A stretch of DNA of 35,088 bases, taken from assembly GCA_013816405.1 (NCBI GenBank), contig JACDEL010000026.1, positions 1 to 35,088 on the forward strand, read 5' to 3'. This stretch comes from Chloroflexota bacterium. Its GTDB lineage: Bacteria > Chloroflexota > Limnocylindria > QHBO01. The translations under genes and the position numbers were made by a program. How positions within the stretch are numbered: the stretch's first letter is position 1; every line of letters begins with the position of its first letter. Positions 17,084 through 22,493 of the stretch are shown in pieces. The notes under the pieces were generated by a model. The model had not been told where the DNA came from. It did not search any database and saw nothing but the letters and a program-made list of their open reading frames with translations.

Positions 17084-17953
17084 ATGCTCGACGGCAGTCC
17101 GCACCGGCGCTCGCGCCCAGGGCTCTGGTTCGCAGCCGCAACGGTCATCTCGCTGCTCCTGCTGCTCGCTTCGCAGACGCCGCAGGCGTTGACGCTGCAG
17201 GAGGTCACTGCGCATGCGCTGGACCCGGTCCGCAGCGGGATCAGCAGCGTCGGCGCGGGAATCTCGGGCTTCTTCACGACCATCGGCGAGATCGACCGCC
17301 TGCGATCCGAGAACGATCGCCTGCGCGGGGAGCTGGCGGGCGTGGAGGCACGCCTTGCCGAGCTGCGCGAAGCGGCTGCCGAGAATGCCGAGCTTCGGGG
17401 CCTGCTCGGTTTGACCACCTCGCTGCAGATGGATCTGCTGCCGGTCCGCATCCTTGGGCGCGATCCCGGCAACTTCACCTGGGAGGTCGGGGTCGACGCC
17501 GGCACAACGGACGGCGTCAGGATCGGGATGCCGGTGGTGGCCGCCGCGGATGGCGCCGGAGCGCTGGCCGGAAGCGTAGTCGCGGCCGGATCCGACTCGG
17601 CAACCGTTCGCCTGGTGGTCGACGCGCGTGCCAGCGTGGTGGCGATCGACCAGCAGTCGCGTGCGCTTGGCCTGGTTCGGGGTCAGCTCGGGGGGCAGCT
17701 GGTGATGGTCCAGATCCGCGCCACCGATAAGGTGGCAGTCGGAGATTCCATCGTCAGCGCAGGGCTGACCCTGACCGATGCCGGCGGCGCCGGGATCGGG
17801 CGCAGCCCATACCCTCGCGGGCTGTTGATCGGGACGATCCAGGCCCTGGAGCTGGATCCCGACGGTCTGACGCGCACCGCCTTCGTGCGTCCCGCCATCG
17901 ACTTTGCGGCCGCGGGGCGCCTCCTGGTGGTGCTCCACTTCGCCCAGGACTAG
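17084..17953 (+). CDS. mreC: Rod shape-determining protein MreC
   Basis: An envelope scaffold that links MreB to the wall-synthesis complex. The 289-residue protein has one N-terminal membrane segment (about 13-30), a coiled coil (about 65-110; heptad-rich IDRLRSENDRLRGELAGVEA), and two beta-barrel subdomains with VRILGRDPGNFTWEV, GTTDGVRIGMPVV, VVDARASVVAI and the late GLLIGTI motif, the normal MreC order. The ATG at 17084 follows the mreB stop by 7 nt. No mreD, rodA or PBP2 gene follows, which is unusual. Confidence 0.92.
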   Translation: MLDGSPHRRSRPGLWFAAATVISLLLLLASQTPQALTLQEVTAHALDPVRSGISSVGAGISGFFTTIGEIDRLRSENDRLRGELAGVEARLAELREAAAENAELRGLLGLTTSLQMDLLPVRILGRDPGNFTWEVGVDAGTTDGVRIGMPVVAAADGAGALAGSVVAAGSDSATVRLVVDARASVVAIDQQSRALGLVRGQLGGQLVMVQIRATDKVAVGDSIVSAGLTLTDAGGAGIGRSPYPRGLLIGTIQALELDPDGLTRTAFVRPAIDFAAAGRLLVVLHFAQD

Positions 17954-18113: not shown

Positions 18114-19856
18114 TTGCCGAACCGCATCAAGGTTGCGCTCATCGCCTCGCTGACCATCGTATCGTCGTTGATGACGGCTGCGCCAGTGGGTGCCGCGACC
18201 CAGCAGAAGGTTGTCATCATCGTTGGCCCTACCGGGGCACAGACCACTGACTACCGCAGCAAGGGCGACGCCATCTACAACGCGGCCGTGGCCGCCGGTG
18301 CGACCGCCGTCAAGGTTTACTCCCCCAACGCGACCTGGGCGAAGGTCAAGGCTGCCGTCAGCGGGGCCAACATCATCGTCTACCTGGGCCACGGCAACGG
18401 GTACCCGAACCCCTACGGCAGCATTGAGTACCCGGACCGCACCAATGGCTGGGGCCTCAACCGGACGGAGCGCTCATCGACCGATCCATACGGGGATTCG
18501 GACGACTGGTCAAAGTACATGGTCTACTGCGGCGAGAAGGTCCTCCGCGGAATGCTGACCTCGTCGGACGACGCTGCGCGGCTGACCTACTGCGGCGGCA
18601 CGGCCAACGATGGAATCACGCCCGCTCCCAACTGGGTGATGATCTACAACAGCGCGTGCTACGCGCCCGGAGCAAGCGAGAGTTGGGACACCCCGGCCAC
18701 CGAGTCGGTGGCCATGCAGCGCGTCCGGAACTACAGCTACCCAGGGCTCTCCTTGGGCGGCGGTGGCTACTTCTCGACCGACATGTACCAGGGCGGTCCG
18801 CAGCTCGTTGACACCATCCTGCGCAACCCGACCATGGCCTTCGGCGCGATCGCCGAGCGGGCCAACGGCTACGACGCCCCCCGCCAGCGACGCTTCGATC
18901 ATCCCGATCTCGCAGGGAAGCGTATCTGGATCCAGAACACGGGCAGCCCGACCAGCGGCGACTACTTCTTCGCCTATGCGGGCAAGCCCGGCTTGACGCC
19001 TTCCGGCACGACGGTCGCGTATACAGAACCGCCCGTTCCCGACGTGACACCGCCAAGCCTGCTGAGCCGATCGCCCGGCGTGTCCGCCATGAACGTGGGC
19101 CTGACGCCGACCATCAGCGCTCGCATCAGCGAGGCGGTAACGGGCGTGGGCAGTGGCACGATGGTCCTCAGCAAGACTGCCGATTATGTCGCTCTCTCGG
19201 CCACCGTCAGCTACGACACAACCACCTTCACGGCCACGCTGCAGCCATCGGCTCCCCTCATCCCTGACACGACCTACCGACTGGCGATGTCAGGCTCGAT
19301 CAAGGACCTGGCCGGCAACTCGTTGCCGTGGACCTGGTGGACCTTCAGGACGGTCTCGTACGATCCGCCGGCCCAATTGGTCTTCAGGGCGGGGACGCAT
19401 ACGGCGTACCAGTTCAGTGGCACCGGGACGATGACGGCCCTGAAGACGTACACGCTGGCAAGCAACTCTGGCGCCAGCACCACGACGCGTGCAACCCTCG
19501 CCAACCAGTCCGGAACCTGGTTCTACGTCAGCGGCGGCGTATGGGCCGGCTACTGGGTACGCCAGTCGAACGTCGTGTGGTGGGCATCGTCGCCGGCACC
19601 CCCGGCCGGTCCTGCCGATGCAACGTTCAGTCCGGCCGTCTCGCTGACCTTCAAGACTGGGACCCATACCGGGTACCAGTTCAATGGCACCGGCGGCATG
19701 ACCGCCCAGAAGAGCTACACGCTGACGAGGGACTCGGGGGCCTCCACGAGCGCGCGCTCGACGATCTCTAGTCAATCGGGCAGCTGGTTCTATGTCACCA
19801 GCGGCGTCTGGGCGGGGTACTGGCTTCGGGCGTCGGACGTCGTGTTCCTGCCCTGA
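18114..19856 (+). CDS. Secreted multidomain protein with caspase/gingipain-like His/Cys signature, Big_5-like domain and two C-terminal SH3-like repeats
   Basis: A 580-residue exported protein. A signal peptide spans about 1-28. The N-terminal domain (about 30-300) alternates beta and alpha (KVVIIVGP, then a helix), then NIIVYLGHGNGYPNP with His93 and NWVMIYNSACYAPG with Cys182. A hydrophobic strand ending in HG, and a second ending in xxAC, is the pattern of clan CD cysteine peptidases (caspase, gingipain). Residues about 310-415 (TPPSLLSRSPGVSAMNVGLTP) resemble a Big_5 immunoglobulin-like domain. Residues about 422-490 and 511-580 are two GTHT(A/G)YQF...GVWAGYW(V/L)R repeats, probably SH3-like wall binders. 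TTG 18114 has AGGAG 7 nt upstream. The next gene ends in homologous repeats. The peptidase role is inference; it may be an inactive or non-peptidase member of the fold. Confidence 0.75.
   Translation: MPNRIKVALIASLTIVSSLMTAAPVGAATQQKVVIIVGPTGAQTTDYRSKGDAIYNAAVAAGATAVKVYSPNATWAKVKAAVSGANIIVYLGHGNGYPNPYGSIEYPDRTNGWGLNRTERSSTDPYGDSDDWSKYMVYCGEKVLRGMLTSSDDAARLTYCGGTANDGITPAPNWVMIYNSACYAPGASESWDTPATESVAMQRVRNYSYPGLSLGGGGYFSTDMYQGGPQLVDTILRNPTMAFGAIAERANGYDAPRQRRFDHPDLAGKRIWIQNTGSPTSGDYFFAYAGKPGLTPSGTTVAYTEPPVPDVTPPSLLSRSPGVSAMNVGLTPTISARISEAVTGVGSGTMVLSKTADYVALSATVSYDTTTFTATLQPSAPLIPDTTYRLAMSGSIKDLAGNSLPWTWWTFRTVSYDPPAQLVFRAGTHTAYQFSGTGTMTALKTYTLASNSGASTTTRATLANQSGTWFYVSGGVWAGYWVRQSNVVWWASSPAPPAGPADATFSPAVSLTFKTGTHTGYQFNGTGGMTAQKSYTLTRDSGASTSARSTISSQSGSWFYVTSGVWAGYWLRASDVVFLP
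19377..19583 (+). repeat. C-terminal repeat A, secreted protein 1
   Basis: A 69-residue unit with GTHTAYQFSGTG at the front and GVWAGYWVRQS at the end. It is closest to the first repeat of the following gene (22014-22220), sharing the AYQFSGTG and VRQS variants. Confidence 0.8.
19644..19853 (+). repeat. C-terminal repeat B, secreted protein 1
   Basis: A 70-residue unit with GTHTGYQF at the front and GVWAGYWLRASDVVFL at the end. About two-thirds of its residues are identical by eye to the last repeat of the following gene (22281-22490). Confidence 0.8.
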
Positions 19857-19873
19857 ACGACAGTCCTTCGTTC
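19855..19873 (+). terminator. Possible hairpin terminator overlapping a stop codon
   Basis: GAACGA/TCGTTC with a 7-nt loop begins inside the TGA of the preceding gene. There is no U-tract after it. It is the only good hairpin in the 144-bp gap before the GH18 gene, so it could separate the two transcripts. Confidence 0.35.
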
Positions 19874-20000
19874 GGGCTATGGCGCTCAGGCCATCGGTAC
19901 CATGGTCCGGAGAGGTGCGGTTCCGTAGGGTGAAGACCTGAGGGGTCGCCGGGGCTCTGCCGTCGGCCGCAGGTATTCAGCTCGCAGTTGGTCAGTCCAC

Positions 20001-22493
20001 GTGATCCGTCGCATTCTCACCCTCGTCAGCCTCCTCATCGTCGCCGTATCGGTCTCGATGCCGCCGGCGATACTGGCCGGTGACCCGCCCAATTGGATTC
20101 CGCCGCTGCGCGCGGATGGCCCGGTGGTCCTCCCGAACGGCCGCGTCCTTCCCGTGAAGCCTGCCTGGGTCCAGGAGTCATCGGTCCAGGCCGAGATGCT
20201 GGCGGAACACGGCAACGACCACCCGAACTTCAAGCCGGGCGCCCAGCCGCGCAAGCTTGGGGAGGCCGGCGGGACGCTCGGGCTGGCGCCTCACGATCGG
20301 CCGGCCATCACGCCGCTCGCGCTGGCCGACCCGTCGCGCACGCAGGCCACGCTCGCAGCGACGGGCTTGCCGAACGGGATGCGCAAGGAGGTCCTGGGGT
20401 TCCTGCCCTACTGGATGCTCGACGCGGGGTCGCTGCAGTGGATGCAGTACCAGCTCGTCAGCACGATCGCCTACTTCAGCGTGGCCGCCCAGTCCGACGG
20501 GACCTTGGCGACGAGCACCAACGGTGTGCCCACCGCAGGCTGGAGCGGCTGGAACTCGAGCGCGATGACCAGCGTCATCAATGCCGCACATGCCAAGGGC
20601 GTTCGGGTCGTCCTGACGGTCACCATGATGGCGTGGGATGGAGGCGCTGCGCAGGGTGCGCTGCTCGGCAACGCGACCGCCCGGGCTGCCCTGGTCAACG
20701 CGATCGTGGCGGCAGTCCGCAACCGCACTGCCGATGGGGTCAACCTGGACTTCGAGCCGGTCTCCACCTCGCTGCGAGACCAGTACACCAGCTTCGTGCG
20801 CCAGCTGAAGGCGGGCCTCGTGGCGGGCCACGTCGGCTCGTACTTGACGATCTGCACCATGGCCGGCGCTGCCACGTGGTCGACCGGCTACGACCTGGCC
20901 GGTCTGACCGCGTCTGGCGCAGCCGATGCCGTCTTCGTGATGGGATACGACTACAGCTGGTCAGGATCCTCCCGGGCCGGTGGCGTGGCGCCGATGGACT
21001 CGCCGTACATCCTCGACGTGCGCGAATCCGTGGATGACTACCTGTCCGTCATTCCCGGGGCGAAGATCATCTGGGGCGTGCCGTACTACGGCCGGACCTG
21101 GCTGACGACCGGCAACACCCTGAACGCGCCGACCGTTGCCGGAGCATCGGGCTCATCGAAGGCCTACTACTACACCGGGGCGCGCAACCTCGCAGCCAGC
21201 TATGGGCGTCGCTGGGACGACGTCGGCAAGGTGCCCTGGTTCGCGTACTACGACTCAGCCAATGGCAGCTGGGCGGAGGGCTATTACGACGATGCCGCCT
21301 CCCTGGCGGCGAAGTACGACATGATCAACCAGAAGAACCTGGCGGGCACCGGCATGTGGACCCTACTCATGGATCAGGGCGACAACCTCCTGTGGGGCCT
21401 GCTCGCCAACAAGTTCGTCAATGACACGACTCCCCCGATGGGCGGGATCACCGTGCTGCCCACGCAGGCCAGCGAGGCCGTCTTCGCGGTCAGCTGGAGG
21501 GCGACCGACGTCGGATCGGGCGTGAAGTCGTATTCAGTTCAATATCACGACCGCTCGACGTCGGTGTGGGTTCCGTGGTTGGCCTCGACAGTGGCGAAGA
21601 GCGCCATCTTCATAGGAATCCCCGGGCACGCATACGACTTCCGCGTGATCGCACTCGACTACCGGGGCAACAGCCAGCCGTTGGTCTGGTCGATGAGCGC
21701 CGGTGGCCCGACCCTGGCCGTGGGCGGGTTCGGCCGAGCCGCGGTCGACGGCGTCAATGTGAGGTCAGGTGCCGGCACCGGCTTCACCTCGCTCGCCCAG
21801 CTGTCCACGGGAGCCACGGTCGCAGTCCTGGGGGGTCCGATCGCCTCCGGCGGCTATCAGTGGTACCAGGTGCAGTTCAACTTCAGCGAATGGCCCTCCG
21901 CGGACTATCCACGCATCGGATGGGTGGCCGCCGGCAGTGGCACAACCGCCTGGGTCGTCCCAACCAAGCCACCCAACATGATCACCGTCGCGGCGAGCGC
22001 CAAGCCAGCCCAGCTGATGTTCGGCCTCGGCACGCATACCGCCTACCAGTTCAGCGGCACCGGTGCCGTGACGGCGGCGAAGAGCTTCACCCTGCAGAAC
22101 GGCTCGAGCGCGCCCGTGAACACACGCGTCTCGATCACTAATCAGTCCGGGACCTGGTTCTTCGTCACGAGTGGCGTCTGGGCAGGTTACTGGGTCCGTC
22201 AATCAAGCGTTTCCTGGCTCTCGACCGCGCCGGTGCCGTCCACCGCTGCCCCGTACGCGACCTTCAACCCGGTCGTTCGGCTCGCATTCAAGATGGGGAC
22301 ACACACGGGATACAAGTTCAGCAGCACCGGGGCCATGACTGCTGAGAGGACCTACACGCTGTCGAAGGATTCCAGCGCTGCGACGAGCGTGCGCAGGACG
22401 CTCACGAATCAGTCCGGCACGTGGTTCTTGGTGACGAGCGGGGTTTGGGCGGGGTACTGGGTTCGCGCATCAGACGTTGTGTACCTGGGCTGA
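20001..22493 (+). CDS. Secreted GH18 glycosidase with FN3-like, SH3b and two C-terminal SH3-like repeats
   Basis: An 830-residue exported protein. A signal peptide spans about 1-26 and a Pro-rich pre-domain runs to about 125. The GH18 barrel (about 130-475) has VLGFLPYWM, GVRVVLTVTMM, the catalytic DGVNLDFEPV (acid Glu252; Asn replaces the first Asp of DxxDxDxE, as in spore-cortex-type GH18 proteins), FVMGYDYSW and WGVPYYGRTW. An FN3-like segment (about 480-570) leads to a bacterial SH3 domain (about 580-645, VDGVNVRSGAGTGF). Repeats A and B of the same type as in the previous gene close the protein. It probably cleaves a GlcNAc-containing wall or environmental polymer, though chitin versus peptidoglycan cannot be decided. 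The start is GTG 20001 with no clear Shine-Dalgarno. Confidence 0.88.
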   Translation: MIRRILTLVSLLIVAVSVSMPPAILAGDPPNWIPPLRADGPVVLPNGRVLPVKPAWVQESSVQAEMLAEHGNDHPNFKPGAQPRKLGEAGGTLGLAPHDRPAITPLALADPSRTQATLAATGLPNGMRKEVLGFLPYWMLDAGSLQWMQYQLVSTIAYFSVAAQSDGTLATSTNGVPTAGWSGWNSSAMTSVINAAHAKGVRVVLTVTMMAWDGGAAQGALLGNATARAALVNAIVAAVRNRTADGVNLDFEPVSTSLRDQYTSFVRQLKAGLVAGHVGSYLTICTMAGAATWSTGYDLAGLTASGAADAVFVMGYDYSWSGSSRAGGVAPMDSPYILDVRESVDDYLSVIPGAKIIWGVPYYGRTWLTTGNTLNAPTVAGASGSSKAYYYTGARNLAASYGRRWDDVGKVPWFAYYDSANGSWAEGYYDDAASLAAKYDMINQKNLAGTGMWTLLMDQGDNLLWGLLANKFVNDTTPPMGGITVLPTQASEAVFAVSWRATDVGSGVKSYSVQYHDRSTSVWVPWLASTVAKSAIFIGIPGHAYDFRVIALDYRGNSQPLVWSMSAGGPTLAVGGFGRAAVDGVNVRSGAGTGFTSLAQLSTGATVAVLGGPIASGGYQWYQVQFNFSEWPSADYPRIGWVAAGSGTTAWVVPTKPPNMITVAASAKPAQLMFGLGTHTAYQFSGTGAVTAAKSFTLQNGSSAPVNTRVSITNQSGTWFFVTSGVWAGYWVRQSSVSWLSTAPVPSTAAPYATFNPVVRLAFKMGTHTGYKFSSTGAMTAERTYTLSKDSSAATSVRRTLTNQSGTWFLVTSGVWAGYWVRASDVVYLG
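22014..22220 (+). repeat. C-terminal repeat A, GH18 protein
   Basis: A 69-residue unit with GTHTAYQFSGTG and SGVWAGYWVRQS, the same sub-type as the first repeat of the preceding gene. Confidence 0.8.
22281..22490 (+). repeat. C-terminal repeat B, GH18 protein
   Basis: A 70-residue unit with GTHTGYKF and GVWAGYWVRASDVVYL, the same sub-type as the last repeat of the preceding gene. It ends the protein. Confidence 0.8.

Follow-up and report, generated by a model that had tools for sequence, protein, structure and literature searches.

Which enzymes a single-membrane cell displays depends on its wall-anchor modules, and a shared anchor on many different heads is a known kind of organisation. For Chloroflexota of the class considered here, little is known, to our knowledge, about the attachment of proteins to the wall. 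Among the described systems, the CWB2 domain of C. difficile is an alpha/beta domain that forms an intertwined trimer; its reported ligand is the anionic polymer PSII (PMC8881574). The SLH domain, which features a helical core (PMC8881574), is a known anchor to wall polymers (PMC6081394), and SLAPTAG binds teichoic acid (PMC10293925). At the chloroflexotal locus described here, two neighbouring secreted proteins end in a pair of repeats, termed A and B. Our analysis predicts with good confidence that this A-B cassette is a C-terminal cell-wall-anchoring module, built from small beta repeats, for the most part cationic, of a family that had not been recognised before.

The window, i.e., the whole stretch of 35,088 nucleotides that was analysed, contains the two genes as head-to-tail neighbours on the plus strand, and both products are predicted to be secreted. 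The first gene (HC; 18114..19856) encodes 580 amino acids with a His/Cys head domain (18195..19040), a bacterial Ig-like Big_5 domain (19041..19352; E 1.4e-14) and the A-B tail. Its mechanical open reading frame begins at 17904, and a TTG at 18114 with AGGAG immediately 5' of it is proposed as the start, based on this ribosome-binding site, the signal-peptide-like N-terminus and the starts of homologues; the stop codon occupies 19854-19856. The tail consists of repeat A (19368..19586), a linker of 16 residues (19587..19634) and repeat B (19635..19853), both repeats comprising 73 residues and B running up to the stop codon. The second gene (20001..22493) has a GTG start and encodes 830 amino acids, including a GH18 domain matched by Pfam (20586..21374), a weak fn3 match, an SH3_3 domain (21747..21935) and again repeat A (22005..22223; 73 residues), a 16-residue linker (22224..22271) and repeat B (22272..22490), the latter ending at the stop codon. 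The SH3_3 domain is an ordinary bacterial SH3 domain with no detectable kinship to the repeats.

The HC head belongs to a large family of secreted proteins occurring in 116 of the 177 genomes of the class, and searches with it gave no match in Pfam or among PDB sequences. Its fold model, built on three alignment rows, reached a pLDDT of 43 and is too poor to use. The histidine of the LGHGNG motif is invariant (24/24 homologues), and the cysteine of NSACYAPG is found in 20 of 25 homologues, with histidine in the remaining five. The His/Cys label of the original prediction is thus justified for the histidine and, for the cysteine, only in most homologues. A peptidase of the clan CD type, with conserved catalytic His and Cys, was considered for this head; given the replacement of Cys by His in 5/25 homologues, a cysteine peptidase is not established. 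Among solved structures, the GH18 head is closest to YdhD, which is the best relative, followed by a GH18 protein (4wiw), a chitinase, a cortical-lytic enzyme and YaaH; this suggests peptidoglycan rather than chitin as the substrate. Between the genes lies a bipartite element (GTACCAT-N21-GTASGGT; 19897..19931), the sole site in the 2.5 Mb genome when up to one mismatch is allowed. It recurs with an identical 21-bp spacer in 13 of 15 HC-GH18 pairs regardless of the type of tail, and may serve the GH18 gene as its own promoter or regulatory site. A search of the 17-23 kb part of the window against Rfam gave no match, and the element is therefore not a known riboswitch.

The four repeats are clearly related, with 33 of 73 columns invariant across all of them and repeat-versus-repeat alignment scores lying 21-23 standard deviations above those of shuffled sequence. 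Thus, the original prediction of a C-terminal repeat pair shared by neighbours with different heads was borne out, and its interval of 19377-22490 was correct to a few codons, the exact cassettes covering 19368-19853 and 22005-22490. The two linkers are alike as well, aligning at a score of 33 against a shuffled mean of 3, which 0.08% of the shuffles reach. The further claim that, across the genes, A is closer to A and B to B than A is to the B of its own gene points in the right direction (A1-A2 64%, B1-B2 66% identity versus A1-B1 60% and A2-B2 59%, with A1-B2 at 60% and B1-A2 at 56%), but the gain of eight matches in 146 over within-gene pairing falls short of significance in the window (bootstrap P=0.07), because only 73 columns are available for comparison. 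Amino-acid site patterns supporting A with A and B with B, within-gene and cross pairing stand at 3:1:2, the nucleotide patterns at 11:10:4, and third codon positions favour within-gene pairing (2:5). A tree joining A and B of one gene, which had been named as a possible refutation, was not obtained, and AU tests on the window repeats did not reject within-gene pairing (p=0.15-0.25). As the margin is not significant, duplication of the cassette as a unit is not proven by the window alone.

The comparison with relatives is more informative about how the tails travel. In G003, a sister species of the window's own genome (G000), the final 820 bp of both genes (Big_5, A and B) match at 84% identity; the similarity has an abrupt boundary upstream and ends about 7 bp beyond the stop codon. 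In G017 (L070:3515-8078), 602 bp comprising Big_5, one repeat and about 25 bp beyond the stop codon are identical between the neighbours. Identical tracts of 602 bp are normally beyond the resolution of a short-read assembler. The MAG that holds the G017 tract consists of 250 contigs, and the tract may have been produced by the assembly; the G003 case, from seven contigs, is safer. Between G000 and G003, the HC heads are 82% and the GH18 heads 87% identical, the tails only 61-62%, whereas the two tails inside G003 share 78% identity. Pairing of the G000 and G003 tails by orthology is rejected on DNA (AU p=9e-5 for HC, 3e-4 for GH18) as well as on protein (4e-4 and 6e-3). Moreover, a FlgD_ig-Big_5 stalk is kept in the GH18 proteins of G001, G005, G006, G017 and G020 and missing wholly or partly in those of G000 and G003, from which the FlgD_ig domain is absent; their tail therefore looks like a replacement. 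Block copies, rejected orthology and the stalk difference taken together indicate that tails have been repeatedly copied or replaced between neighbours, i.e., concerted evolution. Adjacency would allow the 3' end of one gene to be copied onto the other. The originally proposed duplication as a unit thus holds insofar as multi-domain tails move between neighbours as blocks, and not as a single event readable from the window. That the history comprises nothing but one ancient duplication of a two-repeat unit followed by vertical inheritance is quite improbable: in the window, each repeat has its closest counterpart at the equivalent position of the other gene and the A-B linkers match, as such a history would have it, yet it is opposed by the block copies of 820 bp and 602 bp in relatives, by the rejected pairing of orthologous tails (DNA p=9e-5 and 3e-4) and by the GH18 tails of G000 and G003 that look replaced in the stalk comparison. 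Tail copying was seen only in repeat-bearing genomes. CWB2 tails showed no such copying; here, the orthologous tails are closest (63-73% identity between genomes versus 56-63% within a genome).

Within the family, the HC and GH18 genes are conserved as neighbours, and this pair is more widespread than the repeat cassette. In 14 of the 15 readable pairs, the tails of the two genes are of one kind, which varies by lineage; the exception is G019, whose HC gene is without a tail. Repeat tails occur on the pairs of G000, G003, G001, G005, G006, G017 and G020, three CWB2 domains in both genes of G018, G015 and G009, and three SLH-like units in both genes of G014. CWB2 is further found in both genes of G010, in which the GH18 gene is cut by a contig end, and of G021, with one CWB2 on the GH18 protein. 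The pair of G007 features three copies of an 'LLDTR' domain in both genes, and its GH18 protein one repeat in addition. This tail domain (VPLTPARLLDTR...GNLTVT...YVYLGP; L067:911-6224) is 69% identical between the two genes and has no sensible Pfam match; the triple domain is another candidate surface module. At least three changes of tail type are needed on the tree of GH18 heads and five on that of HC heads, the pairs not being independent of each other. Since orthologues carry CWB2 or SLH, both established anchors, at this position, the repeat stands in a wall-anchor slot, and such substitution in place on orthologous pairs counts for wall anchoring. Interchangeability with known anchors on orthologous proteins is a trait of wall-anchor modules which the repeat shares.

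The genome-wide distribution of the three modules was likewise counted for this reading, as they are spread in a complementary manner. Among the 22 genomes of the order, ten have two or more repeat matches, seven have CWB2 and seven have SLH, and none lacks all three. The repeat-rich and the CWB2 genomes are disjoint (hypergeometric P=0.005, phylogeny ignored), as are the CWB2 and the SLH genomes, and CWB2 is absent from the whole of G000. There are overlaps which count against the reading, namely repeats and SLH in the same genome in G002 and G017 and, in G009/G015, a CWB2 protein with repeats at its end as well, so that the three modules are not strictly exclusive; the GH18 protein of G007, combining one repeat with another triple tail, belongs here too. 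Transpeptidases are encoded in all 22 genomes and Omp85 is lacking in 21 of them, which fits a cell with a wall and a single membrane.

A profile of the four window repeats was used to search for the family. Matches were found in 14 of the 22 genomes of the order and 19 of the 177 genomes of the class, and none outside the class in 400 sampled Chloroflexota genomes, with 14 candidates scored per genome. In total, about 80 repeats in 42 open reading frames were gathered from related genomes, those at loci L017-L020 being soil Chloroflexota MAGs. Carriers feature one to six repeats. Three intact carriers exist in G000, the third being an Amidase_2 protein with three repeats, and seven to eight carrier reading frames in G020. 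A VanY gene with repeat on contig C12 of G000 (L007:2128-3543) is split across two reading frames by a frameshift and is either a pseudogene or affected by a sequencing error; intact VanY carriers occur in G003 and G020. According to Pfam, at least ten kinds of secreted head bear the repeat: GH18, HC with Big_5, Amidase_2, VanY, polysaccharide deacetylase, CAP, GSDH, S8 subtilase, lysyl oxidase and CWB2 plus C5-epimerase. The polysaccharide deacetylases (L080-L084, a second family of the class) are the only carriers seen beyond the order of the window, within the class, and have two repeats. Accordingly, the expectation of a lineage-specific module on different heads agrees with its presence in 19/177 genomes of the class and on at least ten head kinds, and surface targeting is very probable.

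Within a single genome, the repeat sits on many secreted heads, which is a further trait in common with wall-anchor modules, and the many heads that are wall enzymes (GH18, Amidase_2, VanY, polysaccharide deacetylase) were counted for anchoring. Two points stand against it: GSDH and lysyl oxidase heads do not act on the wall, and in the polysaccharide deacetylases the repeats lie N-terminal to the enzyme. The heads also bear on the idea that the repeat is a carbohydrate-binding module for an environmental polymer, e.g., chitin or plant polysaccharide, and not for the own wall. Such a role would suit GH18 and polysaccharide deacetylase, which are also chitin-acting families, heads like lysyl oxidase, GSDH and subtilase, which need not act on the wall, and the conserved aromatics of the repeat (GVWAGYW), which fit stacking on sugars. 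It is nonetheless unlikely, as amidase and VanY heads act on peptidoglycan, the solved GH18 relatives are led by YdhD, followed by the cortical-lytic enzyme with YaaH close, and in orthologues of both window genes the slot of the repeat is taken by CWB2 or SLH.

Searches of Pfam, NCBIfam, PHROGs and PDB sequences with the repeats gave no credible match, and neither CWB2 (PF04122) nor SLH (PF00395) was matched at Pfam gathering score in the window proteins or the repeats. Thus, placement inside a well-described family, which had been named as a possible refutation, did not occur. No description of the repeat was found in open-licence papers. Viral contigs and plasmids yielded no relatives, so that nothing points to an origin from phages or plasmids. 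AlphaFold2 predicts the 73 residues of the repeat as a compact all-beta domain (repeat B of the GH18 protein; 15 alignment rows, pLDDT 94, pTM 0.80). For this model, Foldseek found no match at E<=0.001 in PDB and BFVD; one phage protein (E 0.07, TMq 0.65) was not significant. Membership among the bacterial SH3 domains (SH3_3 and relatives) gained no support from Pfam, from Foldseek at this threshold or from hhalign against the SH3_3 domain of the window. Several SH3-type wall binders are among the weak PDB matches (E from 0.85, TMq about 0.3-0.5, reaching 0.48), such as PlySb, lysostaphin and the SlpA domain that binds teichoic acid. This resemblance of the predicted fold is treated as a lead only, also with regard to the SH3-like superfold, a small and compact barrel built of at least five beta strands. 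The net charge of the repeat averages +4.4 and is positive in 89% of the repeats, the heads being near neutral or negative. The compact beta fold and the positive charge were counted for wall anchoring, and the absence of significant similarity to any wall binder, in fold or in sequence, against it. Lactobacillar S-layer domains also appear among the weak, non-significant fold matches. Together with the matched sets of tails on neighbouring genes and the CWB2 triplets of C. difficile, which both anchor and tile (PMC8881574), they would fit a protein-protein docking or S-layer lattice module assembling a surface array without itself binding a wall polymer. Such a role is unlikely, considering that no S-layer-like protein was seen among the repeat carriers, which look like enzymes and in some cases have a single repeat.

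For the preferred reading, wall anchoring, a mechanism can be outlined. The host appears to be a single-membrane Chloroflexota cell with a peptidoglycan wall, in which the exported repeats would bind a wall component and hold the preceding enzyme non-covalently at the surface. The cassette would do the job in the lineage of the window that CWB2 or SLH triplets do in relatives, and the tails of the neighbours would match because both enzymes need to be placed on one wall polymer. The family, its heads, the matched and interchangeable tails and the block copies in two relatives are observed; wall binding, a shared ligand and selection for matching tails are what we infer from these comparisons. 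A common ligand of the HC and GH18 proteins is a reasonable deduction from their matched tails, and an anionic wall polymer as that ligand is a guess from the average net charge of about +4. One conserved gene pair bears three or four anchor types within a single family, nearly always matched, and this natural experiment links a repeat family missing from the catalogues with a function and offers annotators a new domain. It also makes the idea testable that a change of wall polymer drives coordinated anchor replacement.

In comparison with known systems, the repeats resemble SH3b and SLAP-type domains (SlpA of Lactobacillus acidophilus, the SH3b domain of lysostaphin) as small beta domains of a kind often found on wall hydrolases. 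These are among the top Foldseek matches, at non-significant values (E 0.85 and higher, TMq up to 0.48), and like SLAPTAG the repeat is cationic (PMC10293925). In contrast to this group, no significant match in fold or sequence connects the repeat to it, and the profile comparison with the SH3_3 domain of the window fails. With SLH triplets (PF00395) it shares the slot on the same gene pair, occupied by SLH in G014, and differs from them in sequence and by its predicted beta fold as opposed to the helical SLH core. The novelty lies in a repeat family absent from the catalogues and in the exchange of anchor types, in matched fashion, on a single gene pair. Whether the repeats represent a further class of non-covalent wall anchors, unrelated in sequence to CWB2 and SLH, swapped with them within one family and kept matched on adjacent genes by recurrent copying, may be regarded as evenly balanced; if true, the secondary wall polymer made by each lineage could be predicted from its type of anchor. 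Another close parallel is given by the CWB2 (CW_binding_2, PF04122) triplets of C. difficile. Without sequence similarity to these, the repeat of about 73 residues is predicted to be all-beta instead of alpha/beta and occurs in one to six copies instead of a fixed three; like them, it forms a multi-repeat C-terminal tail on many secreted heads per genome, and it takes the same position as CWB2 on the orthologous HC and GH18 proteins of sister genera.
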